Shown: one piece after another, positions 5,403 through 29,746 of the stretch
How the letters are laid out: the number at the start of each line of letters is the position of its first letter
Position numbering within the stretch: position 1 is the first letter of the stretch
DNA from: Phycisphaerae bacterium
GTDB lineage: Bacteria > Chloroflexota > Anaerolineae > 4572-78 > J111
Length of the DNA: 64,000 nt
NCBI GenBank assembly: GCA_028285035.1
Contig: JANQQF010000011.1
Coordinates: 96,277-160,276, forward strand
Direction of reading: 5' to 3'
Position numbers and translations under genes: made by a program
Notes under the pieces: generated by a model
The model's input: only the letters and a program-made list of their open reading frames with translations
What the model was told of the DNA's origin: nothing
The model's database searches: none

Positions 5403-6617
5403 CTACTCTTCGGCTAGCAACGAAATATTGCGAACCATCCCTTCATAAATCCAACCTGAGGCATAGATGCGGATTGATTTAATAAAAACTGGCTTCGTTG
5501 GCCCCAACGTCGTTAATAGATTGACCGACTCATAGGGGTACCAGATGAAACGGGCGATGCGCTCACTGGAGTTATCTGGCTGATTGTAGAGGATATAGTT
5601 TTCAGGGGGAGGGCTATAATAAAAGCCGTGTAGCCAGTTTCGCTCGTTCCCATCGGCGTCTTCATACGCGACGTGAAGCATAATGGGGAACTCGGAGCCT
5701 AGCTGTCCACCTCCAGATAAGGATTGTTCTGAGAGCCGGACTTCAGCGAACACCCGAACGGATTGAAAATCTCGAACGTCTTTATTTACATTTTGGATAA
5801 CCCCAATTTCAGTGTGAACATTATCGCGGCCTTGGCTACGGAGAACAAGGACATTCTGTCCTCTAAACTCCTCAACGATGGCTGTTGTTTCGACCCCTTC
5901 AATCGGCTCTTCAACATAAACCTGCCAGATTTGGTCGAAATCCGGTGAGAATGTGTCCGTTTCGAGCAAGTTTTTTGCTGCGGGTAATGGCCCTAATAGG
6001 GAACTGTCTTGACCTGCCACCGCCCGTTGCCCTTCGCGAATTAAGACATTCTCATTTTCGGGATTTAACACGTTTGCTTCTCCAAGCCGAGGGGTAACCT
6101 GTGTTTCCTCCTCATCAACATCAACCGAAAAGATGCCCTGCCCTAGAGCGATTTGAGCATGTGGGGTGTTGATGTCGATGTTGATATCGGTGCGATCTCG
6201 TGCGGATGTGGCCCGAATCCGTCCTTGCTGAATTTCTAGCAGCAAACGGCTAGGACGATAGCTAAAGCTGAAGCGTGGTTCGCGGATCTCGTGTAATATG
6301 ATCCGGGTATTGCTATACAGTGTAAGGCTACTGTCATCAAACAACCGCAAAATGGCTTGTGAGGTATCATCTGTTGAGATTTGATACAGTTCCTGCACGG
6401 TGGTCGTGTTTCCCCCCGTCAATGATGCTGATAGAGTGGCGTCGGGTTCCCCTAACAACACCGTTCCCCGGACCGAGGTAACATCTGGATCAAATAAAAC
6501 TGTGGCGTTGATCACATACCAGTAAATTGAGGTGGGGATGATGATGCACAATGAACAGAATGTGGTAAAGGAGATAATGAGTATCGTCCAAGCTGTGCGT
6601 TCAGGGTTGTTTTTCAT
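5403..6617 (-). CDS. FecR-domain membrane-anchored protein
   Basis: 404 residues: a short cytoplasmic N-terminus, one transmembrane helix (residues about 10-32), then an extracytoplasmic FecR-like region (ILRLFDDSSLTLYSNTRI, RLLLEIQQGRIRAT, FSVDVDEEETQVTPRLGEA) and a C-terminal beta-rich domain of about 190 residues. An upstream extension to 6941 is open, but it overlaps the preceding gene and lacks FecR character, so ATG 6617 is chosen. FecR proteins elsewhere sense or scaffold at the envelope. No partner sigma factor is visible here. It sits between two membrane glycosyltransferase genes, suggesting a structural role in surface glycoconjugate assembly. Confidence 0.72.
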   Translation of the reverse strand: MKNNPERTAWTILIISFTTFCSLCIIIPTSIYWYVINATVLFDPDVTSVRGTVLLGEPDATLSASLTGGNTTTVQELYQISTDDTSQAILRLFDDSSLTLYSNTRIILHEIREPRFSFSYRPSRLLLEIQQGRIRATSARDRTDINIDINTPHAQIALGQGIFSVDVDEEETQVTPRLGEANVLNPENENVLIREGQRAVAGQDSSLLGPLPAAKNLLETDTFSPDFDQIWQVYVEEPIEGVETTAIVEEFRGQNVLVLRSQGRDNVHTEIGVIQNVNKDVRDFQSVRVFAEVRLSEQSLSGGGQLGSEFPIMLHVAYEDADGNERNWLHGFYYSPPPENYILYNQPDNSSERIARFIWYPYESVNLLTTLGPTKPVFIKSIRIYASGWIYEGMVRNISLLAEE

Positions 6618-6714
6618 TGGTGGATTTGATGCCTTAGGTGTACTGTGCAGGTCGCTATTGTACAGGCAATAGAGGTGGGTGGACAAATTTTTCCCTGCCA
6701 GCAGCACCTTAATG

Positions 6715-8778
6715 TTAAGGAGTGAGTTTAACAGGGCCGACAATCTCTCCCCCACCCATTCCGATAAATTGACCCGGCTCTGGCTGAAAATACATCCCAA
6801 CACGCAATTGGTACTCTCCAGGTGGTAAGTCGGTTGGGAGTTGCAGTTGATGGTGATCTCGCAAAACTTCGCCAGGAGTCCAGAAGCTTGAGGGATAATA
6901 CATCCCTCCAGGTTGTTTGTCGCTCTGTGTGATACCCTCACCTTGAGTGTTGATAAGATGCACGTAGCTTGTGTAATCGACAGATAGAGGCTGTGTAACT
7001 TGCCAATGTAGGGTCACTGTCAGGACTTGGTTTGCTGTAACATTTGTGTCAAAACCAAGAAGAGAGATTGTTTCACTAATTTGCCTTCCCTGGGCATTGG
7101 TTGCAATCGCCTCTGGTAGGGGACGATTGACGACAGTTGCGGGTTGCGCCTCGTTTCTTGTTACCTGGATCAGCTCTTGCCAAGGAGTCAGTTCTGCCTT
7201 GAGTGATAACCCTTCCATTGGTTTAATGAGGTAAACCGGTCGGCCTGATAATAAAGCCTGATCCAGTACTCGTCCCACATTGGTAAAGGCGGGATCTGGT
7301 ACGATTAGGGGAAATAGCCCTTGTAAATCAGGCCGAAGCTGGTGAACATATTGGTAGTACCACATCGGCATAATTTCGTTGCGATCATTGCTTATCAAGA
7401 TAGCGTTATCTGGCAAATCTTTCGCCAAAATCTCTGACCACTGTATTTCAGCCGTACGATTTCTCGATTGATCAATTTGGTTGAAATTCGTGGCAAGTAT
7501 ACCAATTAGAGCCACAAGCATCATGACAATGAGCGTGGTGGCAACAAGGCTATATATTCGATCTTCGAGCCTGCTGGCCATTGTACCAAAAATGGGCACC
7601 TCTTTTGAGCTGGCCTTACTTTGTACAAAGCGTTGAGCTATAATGTGGCTCAGCCATAAACTACCAATACCAAGCCATAGTACTAATATTAGCCAGGTAG
7701 GTAAAAAGAGAACGAAAACGTCACCAATAAAATAAATCATATTGAAGATGACAATAGCTGCGAAGGTTAGCCCGAGTAGACCAAATATATCTAATCTCGT
7801 TGTGGCCAGCACGATTGCGCCTATGACAGCAAGAATCACCCCAAACCAGGTAATTTGAGCCTGTAATAGACTCCAGACCAAACCTAGCCGTTCAACATCT
7901 ACGGCCTCAGGCTGAATTTCATTGGAGAAAACAGTTCCCATCAAGTGGTTCCAGAAACCTATCGGGCTATTTTCATACAAGGTGAGTGTTTGGGTTTCGC
8001 TAAGGTTGATCGTGGCGTAGGGTGTCGTTGGAGCAACATAGGGAATGTATAGATAAAGGAGAAGAGGAAGCAATATGATTGCTAGATGAGATGCAATCTT
8101 GTGTAAAGAGAGTTGTCGCCATAAAGATGGCTGCGGTTCAACTGTCGGCTGTGTTGATTTTTGTTTTGGGGTGAACAAGAAAAAGAATAGGAGAGCCGGG
8201 AGGATTAACACTGTTGTGCGATGGTGAGCTAACCCCAGCCCAATGATAAAACTTAGCGTGTGAAATTGCCACGACCCAAGTGGTGACTGATTGCTTTTGA
8301 GATACAGCACCAACCCTAGAATAGCTACAATTAGAAGGGTGTGAAGCGCATACACTTCGGCAATGACGGCTTGGCTCCAAAATGTGGGGGTGACAGCAAA
8401 GAGCAGGGCGGTTGCTGCACCTGTAACGTGATAGAGGGCGTGAGGTTTATTCGGAAGAGTTAGGCGGAGTAGTTGTGTGGAGACCCAATAAGTGACCCCC
8501 ACTGTGCCTGCGGCGAAGATAGCTGATAACAAATTCATGCGCCACGCCACTTCACCGATCGGGAATAAATGGACCCAGACCCACCCCAAAAGGATATACA
8601 AAGGATAGCCGGTTGGATGTGCGATACCTGGGAGCCAAGCGACAAATTGAAACTCCCCGCTATCTGCATACAAAACAGTAGGGGCTAAGGTGATGAGGTA
8701 TAGAAGGAGTGTAGTTAGGCTCACGCCCACCCCAATAGACCACGACAATTTTTGACTCGAAGTTTGCATATCTGTCAC
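6715..8778 (-). CDS. DUF2723-family membrane protein (TMEM260/GT-C type)
   Basis: 687 residues with about twelve membrane helices and a soluble C-terminus of about 250 residues. The DUF2723 hallmark, an Asp-containing first loop (LYADSGEFQFVAW) followed by GIAHPTGYPLY, is clear. The family is related to protein O-mannosyltransferases. The C-terminal domain is beta-rich and could bind carbohydrate. It is the first gene of the minus-strand cluster 3716-8778, followed 97 bases later by the FecR gene and then the GT39-like gene. Together they suggest extracytoplasmic glycosylation. The donor and acceptor are unknown. Confidence 0.85.
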   Translation of the reverse strand: MTDMQTSSQKLSWSIGVGVSLTTLLLYLITLAPTVLYADSGEFQFVAWLPGIAHPTGYPLYILLGWVWVHLFPIGEVAWRMNLLSAIFAAGTVGVTYWVSTQLLRLTLPNKPHALYHVTGAATALLFAVTPTFWSQAVIAEVYALHTLLIVAILGLVLYLKSNQSPLGSWQFHTLSFIIGLGLAHHRTTVLILPALLFFFLFTPKQKSTQPTVEPQPSLWRQLSLHKIASHLAIILLPLLLYLYIPYVAPTTPYATINLSETQTLTLYENSPIGFWNHLMGTVFSNEIQPEAVDVERLGLVWSLLQAQITWFGVILAVIGAIVLATTRLDIFGLLGLTFAAIVIFNMIYFIGDVFVLFLPTWLILVLWLGIGSLWLSHIIAQRFVQSKASSKEVPIFGTMASRLEDRIYSLVATTLIVMMLVALIGILATNFNQIDQSRNRTAEIQWSEILAKDLPDNAILISNDRNEIMPMWYYQYVHQLRPDLQGLFPLIVPDPAFTNVGRVLDQALLSGRPVYLIKPMEGLSLKAELTPWQELIQVTRNEAQPATVVNRPLPEAIATNAQGRQISETISLLGFDTNVTANQVLTVTLHWQVTQPLSVDYTSYVHLINTQGEGITQSDKQPGGMYYPSSFWTPGEVLRDHHQLQLPTDLPPGEYQLRVGMYFQPEPGQFIGMGGGEIVGPVKLTP

Positions 8779-8904
8779 AAGGCGGGGATTATATAACAGG
8801 ACAATAAATGGGTAAAGAATCCGTTTCTGTTATCTGCCGCTGACCCAAACCTGGAAAATCAGGCAAGGTTCTTGGGATTGGTTAGCAACTACATGGAGGT
8901 TGTG

Positions 8905-14785: not shown

Positions 14786-15178
14786 TTAAGCGATTGTAAT
14801 TTGAGCATCAAGAATACGCTTAACCGATCTTAATAGCTGATCGAGGTTAAACGGTTTGGTAATGTAATCATCGGCGGGAGGATAGTTCTCGATGACTTCA
14901 TAGCTAATGTCGGGAATGTATGCACTGACCACAATCACAGGGATGTCAGCTAAGATAGGGTCATCCTTCATCTGGGTGTATACATCAAATCCAGACGTCC
15001 CTGGCATCATCAAATCTAGCAAGAGTAAACTTGGTTTTTGCCCACGCATGAGAGCTAGTCCGTCTCGGCCTGAGGTAACCCCAAGCACTTCATAGCCGGA
15101 TAATTTGAGGACTTGGGTGACTAAGTTGATGGTTGGGCGTTCATCTTCGATATAAAGAATGTAAGGTTCATATGACAT
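14786..15178 (-). CDS. Single-domain response regulator (receiver only)
   Basis: 130 residues forming one CheY-like receiver: acidic pair IEDE near the N-terminus, phospho-acceptor Asp in LLLDLMMPG, the Ser of VVSA and the Lys of ITKPF. No output domain follows, so it acts through protein contacts or as a phosphate relay. No histidine kinase is adjacent, so the partner must be encoded elsewhere. Confidence 0.88.
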   Translation of the reverse strand: MSYEPYILYIEDERPTINLVTQVLKLSGYEVLGVTSGRDGLALMRGQKPSLLLLDLMMPGTSGFDVYTQMKDDPILADIPVIVVSAYIPDISYEVIENYPPADDYITKPFNLDQLLRSVKRILDAQITIA

Positions 15179-23903: not shown

Positions 23904-24066
23904 AGTGTCCTTAAATCAAGCGATAAGGCGCTGGGGTGATGGGGTTAAATGGAATTATGGTGGGGCGTTGTTGAACAAAGTGTATTTCTAAAGTGTAGAA
24001 GTGGTCAACAAATCAGGTCTCCTCAATTATCCTTATGACAAGAGGTTTTGCAAGTTTACTAAAAGT

Positions 24067-24101
24067 TTTTGAGGAGGCGGGAGGAAATCGCCTCCTCAAA
24101 A
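24067..24101 (-). terminator. Hairpin downstream of the Pth2-like gene
   Basis: A 13-bp stem, TTTTGAGGAGGCG / CGCCTCCTCAAAA, with a nine-base loop just past the stop of the minus-strand amber unit. The T-tract is imperfect, so termination is likely rather than certain. Confidence 0.55.
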
Positions 24102-24105
24102 GGGT

Positions 24106-24438
24106 TTATTTTAATTCGCGCCATAGGGGCCAGCGACGAAACAATCGTCTTTGTGTCCCGGAGATAGGTGTAGTACACATTGCCGTATAGCCCATCTTAT
24201 CATCAGGCTCGTAAAAGCAGGCATACTCAACATTCGCGAAGTCAAGGTGAGCCATAGCATCAAAAAGGCCTTGTTCGGAGGCCACAGTCAACAACACCAA
24301 ATGCGGCGAGGTCACTGGCTGTGAAAATTTGCGCCCTGCCTCAAAGCAGACCTGACCAGCTTGAACAATTTGGTCAGCCACGGGAATATCTGTCCGAACA
24401 AAGACATAAATATAAAAAGTCGGCTATACATCAGGCAT
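24106..24438 (-). pseudogene. Pth2-like (peptidyl-tRNA hydrolase-type) gene interrupted by an in-frame amber codon
   Basis: A clear start exists: ATG 24436-24438 with AAGGAAG seven bases upstream, overlapping the end of the preceding gene. It reads M-P-D-V and then TAG (24424-24426), after which the same frame stays open for 105 codons. The region straight after the TAG (FYIYVFVRTDIPVADQIVQAG) looks like the first strand and helix of Pth2 proteins (VVRTDL..GK.AAQ), followed by LVLLTVASEQGLFDA and YTAMCTTPISG. A GTG at 24381 could start translation but would lose the first strand. It is typed as a pseudogene because of the stop, but the CUA tRNA encoded upstream could permit readthrough. The Pth2 assignment is a moderate-confidence fold inference. 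Confidence 0.55.
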
Positions 24439-24898
24439 GATCAACTTCCTTTTCCAATTGAAATTTTGGGATCAATCTTTCCGGGACTTGATAGGCATCA
24501 AAAGGAAGTTGCCCATTGCTAAAGTGGGTTGGGTCGTAATGGTAAGGGTTCACCCTGGGGATGAACACACGGAGGCTTTGCAACATTTCCGAGGTAACCA
24601 GACCATCAAAAGGGGCTAAAAGCTCATCATGATAACGGTCCCCCTTCAAACGGTAAAGGGCTGAAAACAGGATCCACCCTTCATAGGCTCCGTTCGCCAA
24701 TTTACGCGGATTGGTTGCCGGGGTAAACCCCTTCCGCCAATCCTTGCCTAGCAAAGCCAAATAAAGCAGATGATGGACGGCTGAAAGTTCATGTCGTCGA
24801 TCCGACTGCATTAGAGTGCTCCAATGACGACGCAGAGAAAAATATGTATTTGGGTTATTAAAAACGTGAGCAGTGATTGCTCGAGGTAAGGTATTCAT
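24431..24898 (-). CDS. Unknown 155-residue protein of the amber-tRNA unit
   Basis: 155 residues, hydrophilic, mixed helical, without signal or membrane segment. Visible features are a His/Arg-rich first half (SLRRHWSTLMQSDRRHELSAVHHLLYLALLG) and a Pro/Tyr/His-rich segment (VNPYHYDPTHFSNG). No family was recognised. It begins 114 bases after the tRNA on the same strand and overlaps the Pth2-like gene by eight bases, so the two should be co-translated. AGGAG lies 11 bases before its ATG and is partly inside an inverted repeat, so translation may be gated by RNA structure. Confidence 0.7.
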   Translation of the reverse strand: MNTLPRAITAHVFNNPNTYFSLRRHWSTLMQSDRRHELSAVHHLLYLALLGKDWRKGFTPATNPRKLANGAYEGWILFSALYRLKGDRYHDELLAPFDGLVTSEMLQSLRVFIPRVNPYHYDPTHFSNGQLPFDAYQVPERLIPKFQLEKEVDHA

Positions 24899-24990
24899 TC
24901 GTTATATCTCCTAAAGTGATTTTGATGCAAAAAATAAAAGAGATATAACGACGGGGGTGCTCGGGGGTTAGGTAAAAGAGTCTACAACAT
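24895..24990 (-). other. Candidate leader ORF with amber codon 3, ending ATGA on the next start
   Basis: ATG 24988-24990 is preceded by AAAGGA at nine bases. The frame reads Met-Leu-TAG (24982-24984) and then stays open for 28 codons until TGA 24895-24897, which overlaps the ATG of the 155-residue gene as ATGA. Reading through the TAG would carry a ribosome across the hairpin that masks the downstream ribosome site. An open run of 28 codons is not rare by chance (roughly one in four), so this rests mainly on the combined arrangement. Confidence 0.35.
24901..24949 (-). promoter_or_regulatory. Inverted repeat covering the Shine-Dalgarno site of the 155-residue gene
   Basis: In the minus-strand transcript a perfect 10-bp stem forms between GTTATATCTC (24949-24940) and GAGATATAAC (24910-24901) with a 29-base loop. 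The second arm overlaps the last bases of the AGGAG ribosome site and reaches to two bases before the ATG. Pairing should reduce initiation unless a ribosome or factor opens it. Confidence 0.6.
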
Positions 24991-25011
24991 GGAATTTGAT
25001 CCTTTCACTAG

Positions 25012-25082
25012 CGCGCCATGCGAGAATCGAACTCGCTATAAGCAGTTTTAGAGACCGCCTCTCGTCCAACGAGTCATGGCGC
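25012..25082 (-). tRNA. Atypical tRNA with CUA (amber) anticodon, tRNA-Pyl-like architecture
   Basis: A complete cloverleaf. Acceptor GCGCCAT / ATGGCGC, seven perfect pairs. D arm CTCG-TTGGA-CGAG, with a loop of only five bases. Anticodon stem GGCGGT / ACTGCT of six pairs (two G-U). Anticodon loop CTCTAAA, placing U at position 33 and the anticodon CTA at 25051-25049. Variable loop of three or four bases. T arm GCGAG-TTCGATT-CTCGC, perfect. Discriminator G at 25012; CCA is not encoded. Position 8 is G instead of the near-invariant U. The short D loop, long anticodon stem, identical CUCUAAA loop, short variable loop and G73 resemble tRNA-Pyl, but the T loop is canonical and there are two bases, not one, before the D stem. 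It should decode UAG. The charging amino acid is unknown, and no pyl biosynthesis or PylRS gene is in the window. Confidence 0.85.
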
Positions 25083-25094
25083 TCACCTTAAGAT

Positions 25095-25123
25095 GGTATA
25101 CCATGCTCAATCTGTTACGTCAA
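25095..25123 (-). promoter_or_regulatory. Sigma-70-type promoter of the amber-tRNA unit
   Basis: TTGACG (25123-25118), a 17-base spacer and TATACC (25100-25095) lie in the 49-base gap between the TPR gene stop and the tRNA. Predicted initiation falls about six bases before the tRNA 5' end, so the tRNA heads its own transcript. Confidence 0.6.
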
Positions 25124-25863: not shown

Positions 25864-26874
25864 TCATAAAACCTGCTCAAGTTTATCGGGTAAATCACCC
25901 TTTACCTGAAGACGTTCAATCGCTGCACGAGTTTGCTGCACACTTTCGTGGGGAATATCACCTTTCTGCTTTTGCAGCCGACACAGATCAAGCCACGCCT
26001 CAGCCTCTTCTCGAAGCGCACCCAACCCGTTAATCGATGTCAGATGGCTTTGCCGGGCCTCGATGGCTGCATCAAGGTCATCGAGCAATTCATAATAGGC
26101 CACCCGGATTGTCCAATAACGCATTCCGAAAATCACATTGCACAGCGCTCGTACAGACTCGCTTTGGGCAAAACAATGTTTTGCTTGTTCCACGGCTCCT
26201 AGTTCTAGATGAGCTACGGCTTGCAATATCAGCCCTTCGACAATGTTGTCTTGGCTCTGGTTGTCCCGGCCCAGTTTCTCAGCTGTCTCAGCATGACTTA
26301 ACATTGCTGCCCAATCATTTTGCAGAAAAGCCAAATAGGACAAGTAAATATGAGCATTTGAGCCGTGATGTGAGTTATCTGCTTTACTCAGATAGCTTTG
26401 CGAGGCCAACATTGCGGCGTTGATGTCCCCTCGTCTTAATTCAAACATAGCTCGTTCGCCGGCAAGACATTGCGTGCATTGGGACTCTGGTGGTGCCTCT
26501 TTTTGCATATGATCCAAAGCCGTCTCAATGGTTTCCTGATAGCTCACCGGATCAGTGCCAACGTGCGCGGCGATCAAATCTTGATACAAGCAAATGCGGG
26601 TGCTCCATCCTTGGTAGTGCGGCTTACGGGCTTCAACCGCAGATTGTACAGCCAAAGGCAAGCCCTTAACATAGTCACGTTTTTTGAAGATAATGGTTTG
26701 GGCCAACCAATGGCGAGACTCCATCCGCCACAGATCTTGACCCAATTGTTCAGCAATATTAATCGCCTCCTCAAGCATAGCAATCACTCGGTCAGGATCG
26801 CTATCAAAGTAGTGATGCCACTCCCAATGCAATTCAAAATAACGGTTTTCTAGGGCTTCTTGATCATCATTCAT
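25864..26874 (-). CDS. Helical-repeat (TPR-like) protein, tandem paralogue B
   Basis: 336 residues, predicted all-helical and soluble, with degenerate TPR-like repeats (DPDRVIAMLEEAINIAEQLG, HIYLSYLAFLQNDWAAMLSH). It is about half identical over its whole length to the next gene upstream (26913-27923), sharing ESRHWLAQ..KKRD..KGLPL.VQSA.EAR and CLYQDLIAA. Both sit behind an Hsp90 homologue, so they may act as its co-chaperones or clients. That role is inferred only from position. Confidence 0.75.
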   Translation of the reverse strand: MNDDQEALENRYFELHWEWHHYFDSDPDRVIAMLEEAINIAEQLGQDLWRMESRHWLAQTIIFKKRDYVKGLPLAVQSAVEARKPHYQGWSTRICLYQDLIAAHVGTDPVSYQETIETALDHMQKEAPPESQCTQCLAGERAMFELRRGDINAAMLASQSYLSKADNSHHGSNAHIYLSYLAFLQNDWAAMLSHAETAEKLGRDNQSQDNIVEGLILQAVAHLELGAVEQAKHCFAQSESVRALCNVIFGMRYWTIRVAYYELLDDLDAAIEARQSHLTSINGLGALREEAEAWLDLCRLQKQKGDIPHESVQQTRAAIERLQVKGDLPDKLEQVL

Positions 26875-26912: not shown

Positions 26913-27923
26913 TTAGTGAAGTAACTGCTCTAACCTTCCAGGTAAGCCCCCCTTCGTTTGAAGACGTTCAATCGCAGTTCGCGTTTGTTCTAATGTTTCA
27001 AGATGGATATCACCCTGTTGCTTTTGCAATCGACACAAATCAAGCCAGGCTTCAGCCTCTTCCCGAAGTGCGCCTAGTCCTGCAATTGTGTTGAGATGCG
27101 TTTGTCGCGCAGTAATGGCTGCGTCTAGGTCACCGGAAAATTCGTAATACATCACCCGGCCAGTCCAATATTGCATACCGAAAGTTACCCCACACAACTC
27201 TCGTTCGGCTTCGCTTTGCAAAAAGAGACTGTGCCCCTTTTCAATATCTCCAAGTTTGAGATGCGCGACCGCTTGCCACACCAACGCTTTAACTAAATTG
27301 TTTACATGGTGAGGACGGCTCACTTTTTCTGCTGCTTCGGCATGTCTCAGGACGGCTGCCCAATCATCTTCCAAAAATGCAATATACATCAAGTGAATTT
27401 GAGCATATGAATGGTGGTAATCGGTGTTAGCGTTACTCAAGTAGGTTTGTCCAACCAATTTTGCCGCATTAAGATTACCTCGATTTAACTCGAATGAGGT
27501 TCGCTCACCAAAGAGACAATGAAAGCATTGTGATGATGGCGGGGCCTCAGCCTGCATTCGATCCAACGCTACTTCAATGGCCTCGGCGTGAGTCAAAGCA
27601 TCTACCCCAATATAAGCGGCAATCAGGTCTTGATAGAGACAAATTCGGGTAGTCCAGTCTTTATACATCGGGTGCCGTGCCTCGGTAGCGGATTGAACCG
27701 TTAGGGGCAACCCTTTTGTAAAATCACGCTTCTTCAAAACCAACACCTGAGCCAACCAATGACGAGCCTCCATCTCCCAATAAGGCTCCTCTAGGGTTTT
27801 GGCAATACCAATTGCTTCCTCGATCATCGCAATAGCTCGATCAGGATCAGTGTTAAAATGATCATCCCAATTCCACCACAATAAGCGGTATCGTTCTTCC
27901 AATTTGCCTTCTTCGTCACTCAT
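26913..27923 (-). CDS. Helical-repeat (TPR-like) protein, tandem paralogue A
   Basis: 336 residues, the same length and organisation as its neighbour at 25864-26874. Shared blocks include DPDRAIAMIEEAIGIAKTL, STR/TTRICLYQDLIAA and LREEAEAWLDLCRLQKQ. Its start overlaps the stop of the Hsp90-like gene by four bases (ATGA-type), so it is translationally coupled to the chaperone. Divergence between the paralogues is spread along the length, implying an old duplication with both copies retained. Confidence 0.75.
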   Translation of the reverse strand: MSDEEGKLEERYRLLWWNWDDHFNTDPDRAIAMIEEAIGIAKTLEEPYWEMEARHWLAQVLVLKKRDFTKGLPLTVQSATEARHPMYKDWTTRICLYQDLIAAYIGVDALTHAEAIEVALDRMQAEAPPSSQCFHCLFGERTSFELNRGNLNAAKLVGQTYLSNANTDYHHSYAQIHLMYIAFLEDDWAAVLRHAEAAEKVSRPHHVNNLVKALVWQAVAHLKLGDIEKGHSLFLQSEAERELCGVTFGMQYWTGRVMYYEFSGDLDAAITARQTHLNTIAGLGALREEAEAWLDLCRLQKQQGDIHLETLEQTRTAIERLQTKGGLPGRLEQLLH

Positions 27924-29746
27924 TCGATCAATTCTCCTATAGCACTGGTCAGCGATGAAAATGCATCTGTGGCCATGGATGCGGTCATTGTTTTACCCGA
28001 GAATAATCGAGCAATTTGATACAACAGGTCAATGGCAATTTGCTGATTTCGCTCGGAAATGTTTGGATCAGACAATTGAATAACAAACGGACAACTCGCG
28101 TTCAAGAAAAGTGTGCCTTGATCCCCTTCTTGCTTTGGTCGCGTCCCCATAAACGAGGACACTAATCCAGAAATCGCTGGATCAAGTTCGTCATTCTCTA
28201 TGGCAATATGCACATCCTGCCACTTTTCGGCATCCTTGGGATGGATCATCAGGGCCGGGATTTGAGAGGGTTCAAAAGCTGCCACCTTAACCGGAATGCC
28301 TAGCCGTTCTGAGGCAGCCAGTAGATCGATGAATTCATTAGAAGTAGCCTCTTTGAATAATTTGGTCGGTTCTTCATCAAGGGGAATCAATTCCAACTCC
28401 TCTTGATGCTCTTCCGCAAACTTTGCCAAGAAAGGGCGAACTGCAAACCAAACAGCCTCAATCACTGGATATGAGTTCCCTTCCGCCAGTACCTTTTCCT
28501 GTAACGATTTAATTTCGTGGGTGACGTAGTATAATTTCCCATCTGTCAGTTTTAGATAATCCGGCAACGTCATTTCCCCCTGTGAAGTACGAAAGGTTAG
28601 AATGTTTGCCACCTGATTAAAGAATTCATCATCCTGCACCGCCCACCCCGTCATCACATCGGCGTGCCCACGTACAATACGTTGCCACAATTGAGGTTTT
28701 TGCTGTTGAATTTGATGCATAGCTGCACTGAGCTGCTTGCCCAGAGCTTGTCGGACCAGCGTAAAGTTCTCGTCACGCCGCACCGACTCTCGTGAGGCTG
28801 TTGGGTGCAAAAATGGCGACTCAACCAAACCCCGCACAAATTTGGCCCAGGGTGGCAACAACTCCTGCTCAGTATCTGTGATAAACATGCCCCGGATATA
28901 AACGTGTAAATCGCCATATTCTCGAATCGAAGTGATGGTTGAATCAGGGATAAAAAGAAAGCCCTGCAACGGTGTCTCAATTGTATCCCCGTGAGAGACT
29001 ATCTCGATATGATCCTGTAAAGGAATGATGGCCAGCGGCGGTGGCATTTGAAATTCTCGCTCAATAAAGTGGCGCAGTGCATATTCTTGGTCAATATGCT
29101 TCCAAGGGGCCTTCATCTCATTCTCAGGCTGTGTCTGACCGTTGAGATAAATTGGAATTGGTAGAAAATTGGCAAACTGACGAATTTTCTGGCTTAGGAT
29201 TTTCGCTTCAGTCAGAAAGCTAGCTTCAGCCCGGACATTCAAAATAATCGTCGTGCCTCGCTTTTCTCGATTGCCTGCTTCAACAGTGAATGAGTCACCT
29301 CCACCGGCCATCAAGCGCAAAGCCTCACTATCAGGTTGCCAGGACTTTGTTTCCACCACCACTTCGTTGGCTAACATAAACGCGCTCAGGAAACCAAATC
29401 CAAACTGGCCAATCAACTCCTGCCCCGCCTCAGGCTCAAATAGCTCAAGATGAGATCGTAATTCACGAGTGTAGCTGCGCCCGATGGTGGTCAGATACGT
29501 TTCAAGCTCCTCATACGTCAAGCCAGAACCATTGTCATGCACCGTCAAGGTGTTAGCCTCAATCTCGATTTCAATACGTGGTCCATAATTCTCAGGCTTA
29601 GCTTCAACGACAAAGCGAGTACAGCTATCATGCGCATTTTGGATTAACTCACGTAATCCAACGGAAGGATTGGCATAAAGACTTCCGGCTAACACCTCCA
29701 ACAAGCCATCCATATTGAGCTTAAATTGTCCTTGTGATTTTGTCAT
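27920..29746 (-). CDS. Hsp90-family ATPase (HtpG-like)
   Basis: 608 residues with an N-terminal GHKL ATPase: N box ELIQNAHDS, G1 DNGSGLTYEEL, TIGRS, and G2 GQFGFGFLSAF. The middle domain includes the catalytic-loop region around SRESVRRDENF; the C-terminal part holds GTLFLNASCPFVIQL. This is the HtpG domain order. Sequence drift from canonical HtpG (ELIQNAHDS versus ELISNASDA) and the co-operonic TPR-like proteins suggest a specialised paralogue rather than the housekeeping chaperone. Confidence 0.85.
   Translation of the reverse strand: MTKSQGQFKLNMDGLLEVLAGSLYANPSVGLRELIQNAHDSCTRFVVEAKPENYGPRIEIEIEANTLTVHDNGSGLTYEELETYLTTIGRSYTRELRSHLELFEPEAGQELIGQFGFGFLSAFMLANEVVVETKSWQPDSEALRLMAGGGDSFTVEAGNREKRGTTIILNVRAEASFLTEAKILSQKIRQFANFLPIPIYLNGQTQPENEMKAPWKHIDQEYALRHFIEREFQMPPPLAIIPLQDHIEIVSHGDTIETPLQGFLFIPDSTITSIREYGDLHVYIRGMFITDTEQELLPPWAKFVRGLVESPFLHPTASRESVRRDENFTLVRQALGKQLSAAMHQIQQQKPQLWQRIVRGHADVMTGWAVQDDEFFNQVANILTFRTSQGEMTLPDYLKLTDGKLYYVTHEIKSLQEKVLAEGNSYPVIEAVWFAVRPFLAKFAEEHQEELELIPLDEEPTKLFKEATSNEFIDLLAASERLGIPVKVAAFEPSQIPALMIHPKDAEKWQDVHIAIENDELDPAISGLVSSFMGTRPKQEGDQGTLFLNASCPFVIQLSDPNISERNQQIAIDLLYQIARLFSGKTMTASMATDAFSSLTSAIGELIE

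Follow-up and report, generated by a model that had tools for sequence, protein, structure and literature searches.

The window studied here, by which we mean the whole 64-kb stretch of DNA that was analyzed, holds a single tRNA gene by ARAGORN, on the minus strand at 25011-25082, with the anticodon CUA and the label “tRNA-Pyl.” The question that this locus raises is which UAG codons such a tRNA would read, and to what end. Downstream of it, in order and on the same strand, lie a leader, a gene for a 155-aa protein (ORF155) and a gene for a PTH2-type peptidyl-tRNA hydrolase, and both the leader and the hydrolase gene have an in-frame UAG close to their start. We propose, with a probability of roughly 0.8, that the tRNA serves as an amber suppressor dedicated to its own cluster, which it would switch on by reading through these UAGs against release factor 1 (RF1), an estimate that sets apart any feedback through PTH2. 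The features of the cluster are as follows.

25095..25123, minus strand: promoter-like TTGACG-17-TATACC, seen by eye and absent from a consensus promoter scan
25012..25082, minus strand: tRNA with CUA anticodon, predicted amber suppressor (ARAGORN and covariation)
24982..24990, minus strand: start of the leader ORF, ATG-TTG-TAG, with the UAG at 24984-24982; ATG-Leu-TAG in 11/11 bacterial loci
24952..24963, minus strand: Arg-Ala-Pro-Pro (RAPP) codons in frame past the leader UAG; arrest-peptide motif
24938..24951, minus strand: 5' arm of the leader hairpin, immediately after the RAPP codons
24899..24912, minus strand: 3' arm of the leader hairpin, with the Shine-Dalgarno AGGAG of ORF155
24431..24898, minus strand: ORF155, a 155-aa all-helical protein
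24106..24438, minus strand: PTH2-type peptidyl-tRNA hydrolase gene; UAG as codon 5 (24426-24424), ATG overlapping the ORF155 stop
24066..24102, no strand assigned: stem-loop of 15 pairs just past the PTH2 stop, a possible terminator (terminator-like listing on the plus strand only; minus-strand tail CTTTTAG by eye)

Judged from sequence and predicted folding, the tRNA is real, a cloverleaf of functional type that appears to be kept by selection. The predicted fold of its strand is a cloverleaf with an energy of -30.3 kcal/mol (z -3.43; 0/200 shuffles equal), and an alignment of 13 CUA tRNAs (10 bacterial and three from viral contigs, 12 of them distinct) has compensatory change on both sides in 14 of 21 stem pairs and pairing in 96.4% of stem cells, a result equaled by none of 500 shuffles. 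These two-sided changes and the stem pairing across relatives argue that the tRNA is under selection and not decayed. The initial annotation had allowed for a decayed tRNA whose anticodon no related genome keeps, and on both counts the outcome is the opposite, with a CUA tRNA at all 10 other bacterial cluster loci. Its statement that the CTA anticodon is well determined holds: ARAGORN gives the same anticodon, and cloverleaf and covariation agree. The gene had further been called promoter-driven, and a promoter-like TTGACG-17-TATACC can indeed be picked out by eye at 25123-25095, but the consensus scan lists no promoter there. Assignment to a tRNA family is divided, in that ARAGORN calls a tRNA-Pyl but a search of the 64-kb window gave no Rfam match at gathering score; the top sub-threshold match is tRNA-Sec (35.4 bits vs. 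47), which we ascribe to the unusual D arm.

In tRNA-Pyl, a single base links the acceptor and D stems, G18G19 are missing, and there is no canonical T loop. The window tRNA has two bases between acceptor and D stem, GG in its D loop, and a GTTCGA T loop; the canonical T loop and the two-base linker, which had been pointed out from the sequence as unlike tRNA-Pyl, are also seen in the alignment. The proportions described as tRNA-Pyl-like are present in the window, but the short D loop and the six-pair anticodon stem are absent from some relatives and thus are no family trait. Nor did PylS (TIGR02367) exceed its cut-off in any of the nine cluster genomes searched (without G483), which were run together with 14 control genomes. 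Matches below the cut-off occurred in eight of the nine, and 13 of the 14 controls matched, one of them over the cut-off; because controls match too, we read the weak matches as cross-hits to other synthetases. A pyrrolysine decoding system was therefore rejected, on the PylS result and on the anatomy of the tRNA. Between the two identities first offered for this tRNA, the evidence goes against a tRNA-Pyl variant and favors a new suppressor class, given the CUA kept in the 10 other loci and readable UAGs within the same cluster.

The cluster recurs in other bacteria. When genomes were scanned with an alignment of ORF155, blind to the tRNA and to UAG, nine loci came out, eight from Chloroflexi and one from an Abditibacteriaceae genome. 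At all nine, the start of a CUA tRNA lies 184-273 bases before that of ORF155, and a PTH2-like frame with an in-frame TAG near its start lies downstream. An order-wide search added a tenth locus (L025) with tRNA(CUA) and a PTH2 gene with an in-frame UAG, so that both occur at 11 of 11 bacterial loci, the window included. Their distribution is patchy, with the ORF155 cluster in 1/400 genomes of a phylum sample (at most nine candidates scored per genome), in 3/56 and 5/154 genomes of two orders, and, around the Abditibacteriaceae genome, in 1/4 and 1/201; in the phylum samples, scoring covered a subset of each genome's candidates. When 396 genomes of one class were searched for PTH2, six had it, all of them cluster-bearing. 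ORF155 itself has 375 database matches, and family and structure searches found no known family or fold for it.

In the window the frame of the last gene, assigned to PTH2, opens ATG CCT GAT GTA TAG and continues to 24106; when the UAG is translated as an amino acid, the database matches number 10, one being the window's own protein, and six of the other nine start inside the first core strand, past the UAG position. The protein has no Pfam match at E 0.1, and four of nine relatives tested (L030, L032, L036, L041) exceed the PF01981 gathering score of 23 bits. The model (pLDDT 91.4) has the PTH2 fold by Foldseek, the top 14 chains coming from 1q7s, 1wn2, 2zv3, 3erj, 1xty, 1rlk, and 1rzw. Entries 3erj, 1xty, and 2zv3 are titled peptidyl-tRNA hydrolase, 3erj and 1rzw are structures of one protein, and we take 1q7s, 1wn2, and 1rlk to be PTH2 as well.

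Relatives of this gene occur in large phages. Searches by tblastn with PTH2 returned 31 and 33 phage records, and 17 of the 33 were fetched, after removal of eight duplicate accessions, five near-identical Erwinia phages, and three RaK2-like Klebsiella records. PTH2 opens with ATG, one or two codons, and TAG in 13 of the 17 (ME3, LR756511, SNUABM_19, BF, CBB, GAP32, XbC2, Kaldavass, Arash, pT24, XacN1, CM1, and RAS14), and a CUA tRNA is present in all 13. The PTH2 genes of the remaining four (RaK2, RCIP0023, Hallingskeid, and S-CBWM1) have no such TAG, and ARAGORN gave no CUA tRNA in the stretches holding all their RF00005 matches, with weak RF00005 matches that received no ARAGORN call numbering one in RaK2 and two in Hallingskeid. 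Three of the four IMG/VR contigs L027-L030 have both TAG and CUA tRNA; the other, L029, combines a CUA tRNA (8779-8856) with a PTH2 (8013-8354) that starts MDGKPYVYV without a UAG, and here either the gate has been lost or the target is a different one. In total, UAG and tRNA occur together 27 times, neither occurs in four cases, the tRNA occurs alone once, and the UAG never occurs without the tRNA. Outside this tally, relatives of the Erwinia/Pectobacterium phages in IMG/VR have the TAG in 8/8. In the fetched phage records, the amber PTH2 is unannotated or annotated from past the UAG, and the CUA tRNAs of large phages appear as “tRNA-Pyl” or “tRNA-OTHER,” and in one record as tRNA-Phe. Gene finders miss such genes, which are annotated late or not at all, because start codon and UAG are only a few codons apart.

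Three further observations concern tRNA genes on the viral side. XacN1 (L079 35900-36400) has two CUA tRNAs in tandem with identical anticodon arm and T stem-loop, whose acceptor stems differ and whose base 73 is A in one and G in the other, as if they were differently charged. On L028, at 6311-7104 of a 379-kb viral contig, two CUA tRNAs are immediately preceded by a gene for tmRNA, and all three lie upstream of the ORF155 homologue. L030, a contig with an amber PTH2, has an ARAGORN tRNA-SeC (tca) at 14980-15053 among 27 tRNA genes in 16 kb.

Across the 27 amber PTH2 genes, the first in-frame stop met on going upstream from the core is always TAG, at codons 3-6 from the nearest ATG in 26 and at codon 17 in L009, where that ATG has a strong Shine-Dalgarno. 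A Shine-Dalgarno-like stretch stands ahead of the nearest ATG in 25 of the 27 and is absent in ME3 and pT24. In a table of 23 genes, a potential start codon (ATG, GTG, or TTG) separates TAG and core in three and is missing from the other 20, and seven have a GTG or TTG among the first eight core codons; the annotated ATG of XacN1 lies four codons past the TAG. Where PTH2 is fused with another domain (XacN1, CM1, and RAS14), TAG is still codon 3. These loci are not independent, since the 25 of 27 amber proteins compared (without L028 and RAS14) form 16 clusters at 70% and seven at 50% identity. The tail around the TAG varies freely, and the inserted residue is therefore unlikely to be catalytic. 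Because the residues near the UAG are variable and because acceptor stems and base 73 differ among the tRNAs, the identity of the amino acid placed there is probably unimportant.

The other UAG of the cluster, that of the leader, is found between tRNA and ORF155. This spacer contains, after a purine-rich stretch, an ATG, one leucine codon, and TAG in 11 of 11 bacterial loci. Past the TAG, the frame encodes six residues followed by RAPP (four loci), RDPP (five), or RSPP (one), and in L009 it leads to R-G-P-P with a second in-frame TAG before the motif; the leader thus measures 13 codons to the end of the motif in ten loci and 14 in L009. The Arg codon may be AGA, CGA, CGT, or CGC and the Pro codons use all four third bases, and this synonymous variation argues for selection on the leader peptide. 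A hairpin of 9-14 bp follows, with the ORF155 Shine-Dalgarno in its 3' arm at 11/11 loci and two-sided change at three stem pairs in the seven loci compared; the distance from the end of the motif to the start of the stem is 0 nt in six loci, -1 in two, and +2 in three. Of 2000 dinucleotide shuffles made for each locus, between 23 and 113 contained ATG-NNN-TAG, whereas ATG-NNN-TAG with an in-frame R-x-P-P appeared in 0 of 2000 at each of 13 loci. The spacer of L004 also has a second G+C-rich stem-loop within the leader hairpin, apparently an insertion, with both arms of the hairpin intact.

Viral leaders vary this plan. The L027 leader has two Met-Leu-UAG in one frame and then R-A-P-P, and its predicted global fold differs from the leader hairpin. 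That of L028 reads Met-Leu-UAG and then R-P-P and a stop, which falls outside the strict R-x-P-P pattern. L157, which is the L030 contig, reads Met-Ser-Lys-UAG, then another UAG and K-S-P-P, followed downstream by ORF155 at 35% identity and the amber PTH2. Two UAGs in the leader frame are thus found in L009, L027, and L157.

All 11 bacterial leaders would belong to the RAPP type, in which R-A/G/D/S-P-P ends a short frame ahead of a regulated gene, only if the UAG is read. At RAPP motifs, the peptide bond to a proline waiting in the A site is blocked (PMC10951233), with the third motif residue in the P site at the stall (PMC10987492); RAPP and RGPP arrest in several contexts, and RDPP and RSPP are partly permissive (PMC12992588). 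The variants in the bacterial leaders are the same four, and most RAPP-like motifs inside ordinary proteins are described as giving no stall (PMC10987492).

How might these elements work together? RF1 exceeded its cut-off in all 10 cluster genomes searched for it, and of 140 mechanically called ORFs of at least 150 aa in the bacterial loci, 45 terminate at UAG. With RF1 present and UAG an ordinary stop, tRNA(CUA) must compete with RF1, and the suppressor must be weak, scarce, or regulated because UAG is a common stop and strong suppression would be costly. From strand, order, and spacing, we infer that tRNA, leader, ORF155, and PTH2 form one transcript. When charged tRNA(CUA) is short, leader ribosomes would stop after Met-Leu, the closed hairpin would hide the ORF155 Shine-Dalgarno, and the PTH2 frame would end after a few codons. 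When tRNA(CUA) beats RF1, the leader would be translated to R-x-P-P, which ends at the hairpin. With the usual ribosome footprint, a stall at the motif would cover most of the 5' arm; the stalled ribosome would free the Shine-Dalgarno, and ORF155 would be made. PTH2 is probably coupled to ORF155, because in the window its start overlaps the ORF155 stop, and would require the second UAG to be read in addition. With two UAGs read in series, the cluster would be a two-gate sensor of UAG read-through.

The output is the least certain step. PTH2 may hydrolyze peptidyl-tRNA, including short peptidyl-tRNA(CUA) dropped at the early UAGs. The suppressor would then be trimmed back or recycled by PTH2, a feedback loop akin to the autoregulation of RF2. 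This step, to which the PTH2 fold of the model points, is tentative, and we put it somewhat short of an even chance. XacN1 and CBB are reported, in the available parts of the papers describing them, to encode another peptidyl-tRNA hydrolase (PMC5852040, PMC5259590), so the amber PTH2 need not be the main activity. For the full picture of a suppressor tRNA as regulatory molecule, that is, a mobile cluster shared with phages in which tRNA(CUA) would be the input, the two UAGs serial gates, and the hydrolase the element that resets the tRNA, we consider the odds slightly favorable.

Other explanations begin with what is read at UAG. The CUCUAAA anticodon loop is a feature of tRNA-Pyl, and together with the ARAGORN label it could speak for a pyrrolysine-type or other noncanonical amino acid that is inserted at UAG and required in the PTH2 protein; however, with no PylS over the cut-off in nine genomes, a UAG that lies in the variable N-terminal tail ahead of the first PTH2-core strand, and two XacN1 tRNAs that differ in acceptor stem and base 73, we regard this as very improbable. 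Still less probable is a global reassignment, by which UAG would be a sense codon throughout these genomes and its presence in the cluster incidental. Phages in which numerous ORFs contain in-frame TAG do exist (PMC10607447), but for the bacteria a UAG-reassigned code was rejected on the universal presence of RF1 in the cluster genomes and on the share of long ORFs that end in UAG.

A different challenge is that the UAGs are true stops. Very early stops favor peptidyl-tRNA drop-off, and Met-Leu-UAG and Met-x-UAG could be minigenes that cause it, with PTH2 made by reinitiation or from a later start and the tRNA otherwise employed; peptidyl-tRNA hydrolase is the enzyme that clears drop-off products, and the later start codons in three of 23 genes and in XacN1 would fit. 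We nevertheless think this improbable, as it leaves unexplained the in-frame R-x-P-P past the leader UAG with its synonymous codon variation, the second in-frame leader UAGs of L009, L027, and L157, and the choice of TAG, with a tRNA(CUA), in all 27 cases. The main rival concerns purpose and is compatible with the same read-through switch. Its output would be phage-host conflict, with PTH2 and ORF155 released as defense or counter-defense when UAG reading is disturbed, for example, because tRNAs are cleaved, RF1 is lost, or a phage supplies a suppressor tRNA. A review ties phage PTH2 to the rescue of ribosomes with cleaved tRNAs, in the part of its text available (PMC7824862), and the patchy spread of ORF155 and its sharing with large phages are in keeping with such a role. 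The suppressor belongs to the cluster itself, however, which fits self-monitoring, and we hold both the conflict purpose and these triggers to be rather unlikely.

Pyrrolysine operons (pylTSBCD) also place a tRNA(CUA) beside a gene with an in-frame UAG. Unlike them, the cluster comes without a PylS over the cut-off in the nine genomes searched and its tRNA has a canonical T loop. One of its UAGs sits in the leader and the other in the variable N-terminal tail of PTH2, as expected of a switch and not of an active-site residue. Another related system is the autoregulation of RF2, in which an early in-frame UGA in prfB and a frameshift sense RF2. Both would use an early stop as a sensor of termination efficiency in the gene of a translation factor, but the cluster is proposed to rely on read-through of UAG by a linked tRNA and would sense tRNA(CUA) against RF1. 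We know of no system with the standard code in which a suppressor tRNA provides the signal that regulates the cluster it belongs to. The parts (suppressor tRNAs, arrest leaders, and PTH2) have known relatives, and it is the circuit that would be new. A literature search, mostly without subscription papers, gave no report of a PTH2 gene interrupted by UAG or of a leader gated by a suppressor.

Among those relatives, ApdA, ApdP, SecM, and the RQH-family leaders likewise have R-A/G/D/S-P-P before a regulated gene; as far as the available text of the sources goes, these have ordinary frames and many serve to monitor where proteins are localized, whereas the cluster leader is short and would need read-through of UAG (PMC10951233, PMC10987492, PMC12992588). 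The same enzyme family was noted in jumbo phages in the available portion of PMC7824862, the main text of which does not contain “suppressor” or “stop codon.” The suppressor tRNAs of XacN1-type jumbo phages are of the same tRNA type, and XacN1 is among the phages studied here. Its authors described, in the part of the article available, two CUA suppressor tRNAs and 18 amber stops read through, with no target found (PMC5852040). A likely target can now be named in the PTH2-fusion gene ORF364, annotated from the ATG four codons past the UAG, which is codon 3 of an upstream ATG with a Shine-Dalgarno-like stretch. Likely targets are thus named for CUA tRNAs in phages and on bacterial chromosomes. 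If the proposed switch is correct, organisms with the standard code would use stop-codon suppression as a regulatory input, coupled here to a ribosome-arrest motif that is already known, and the cluster would act as a naturally occurring amber switch that gauges suppression and would explain the CUA tRNAs of large phages without visible targets.

Elsewhere in the window, a gene for an HSP90/HATPase-like protein (27920-29746) is followed on the same strand by two genes (26913-27923 and 25864-26874) whose products, each of 336 aa, look like paralogs.
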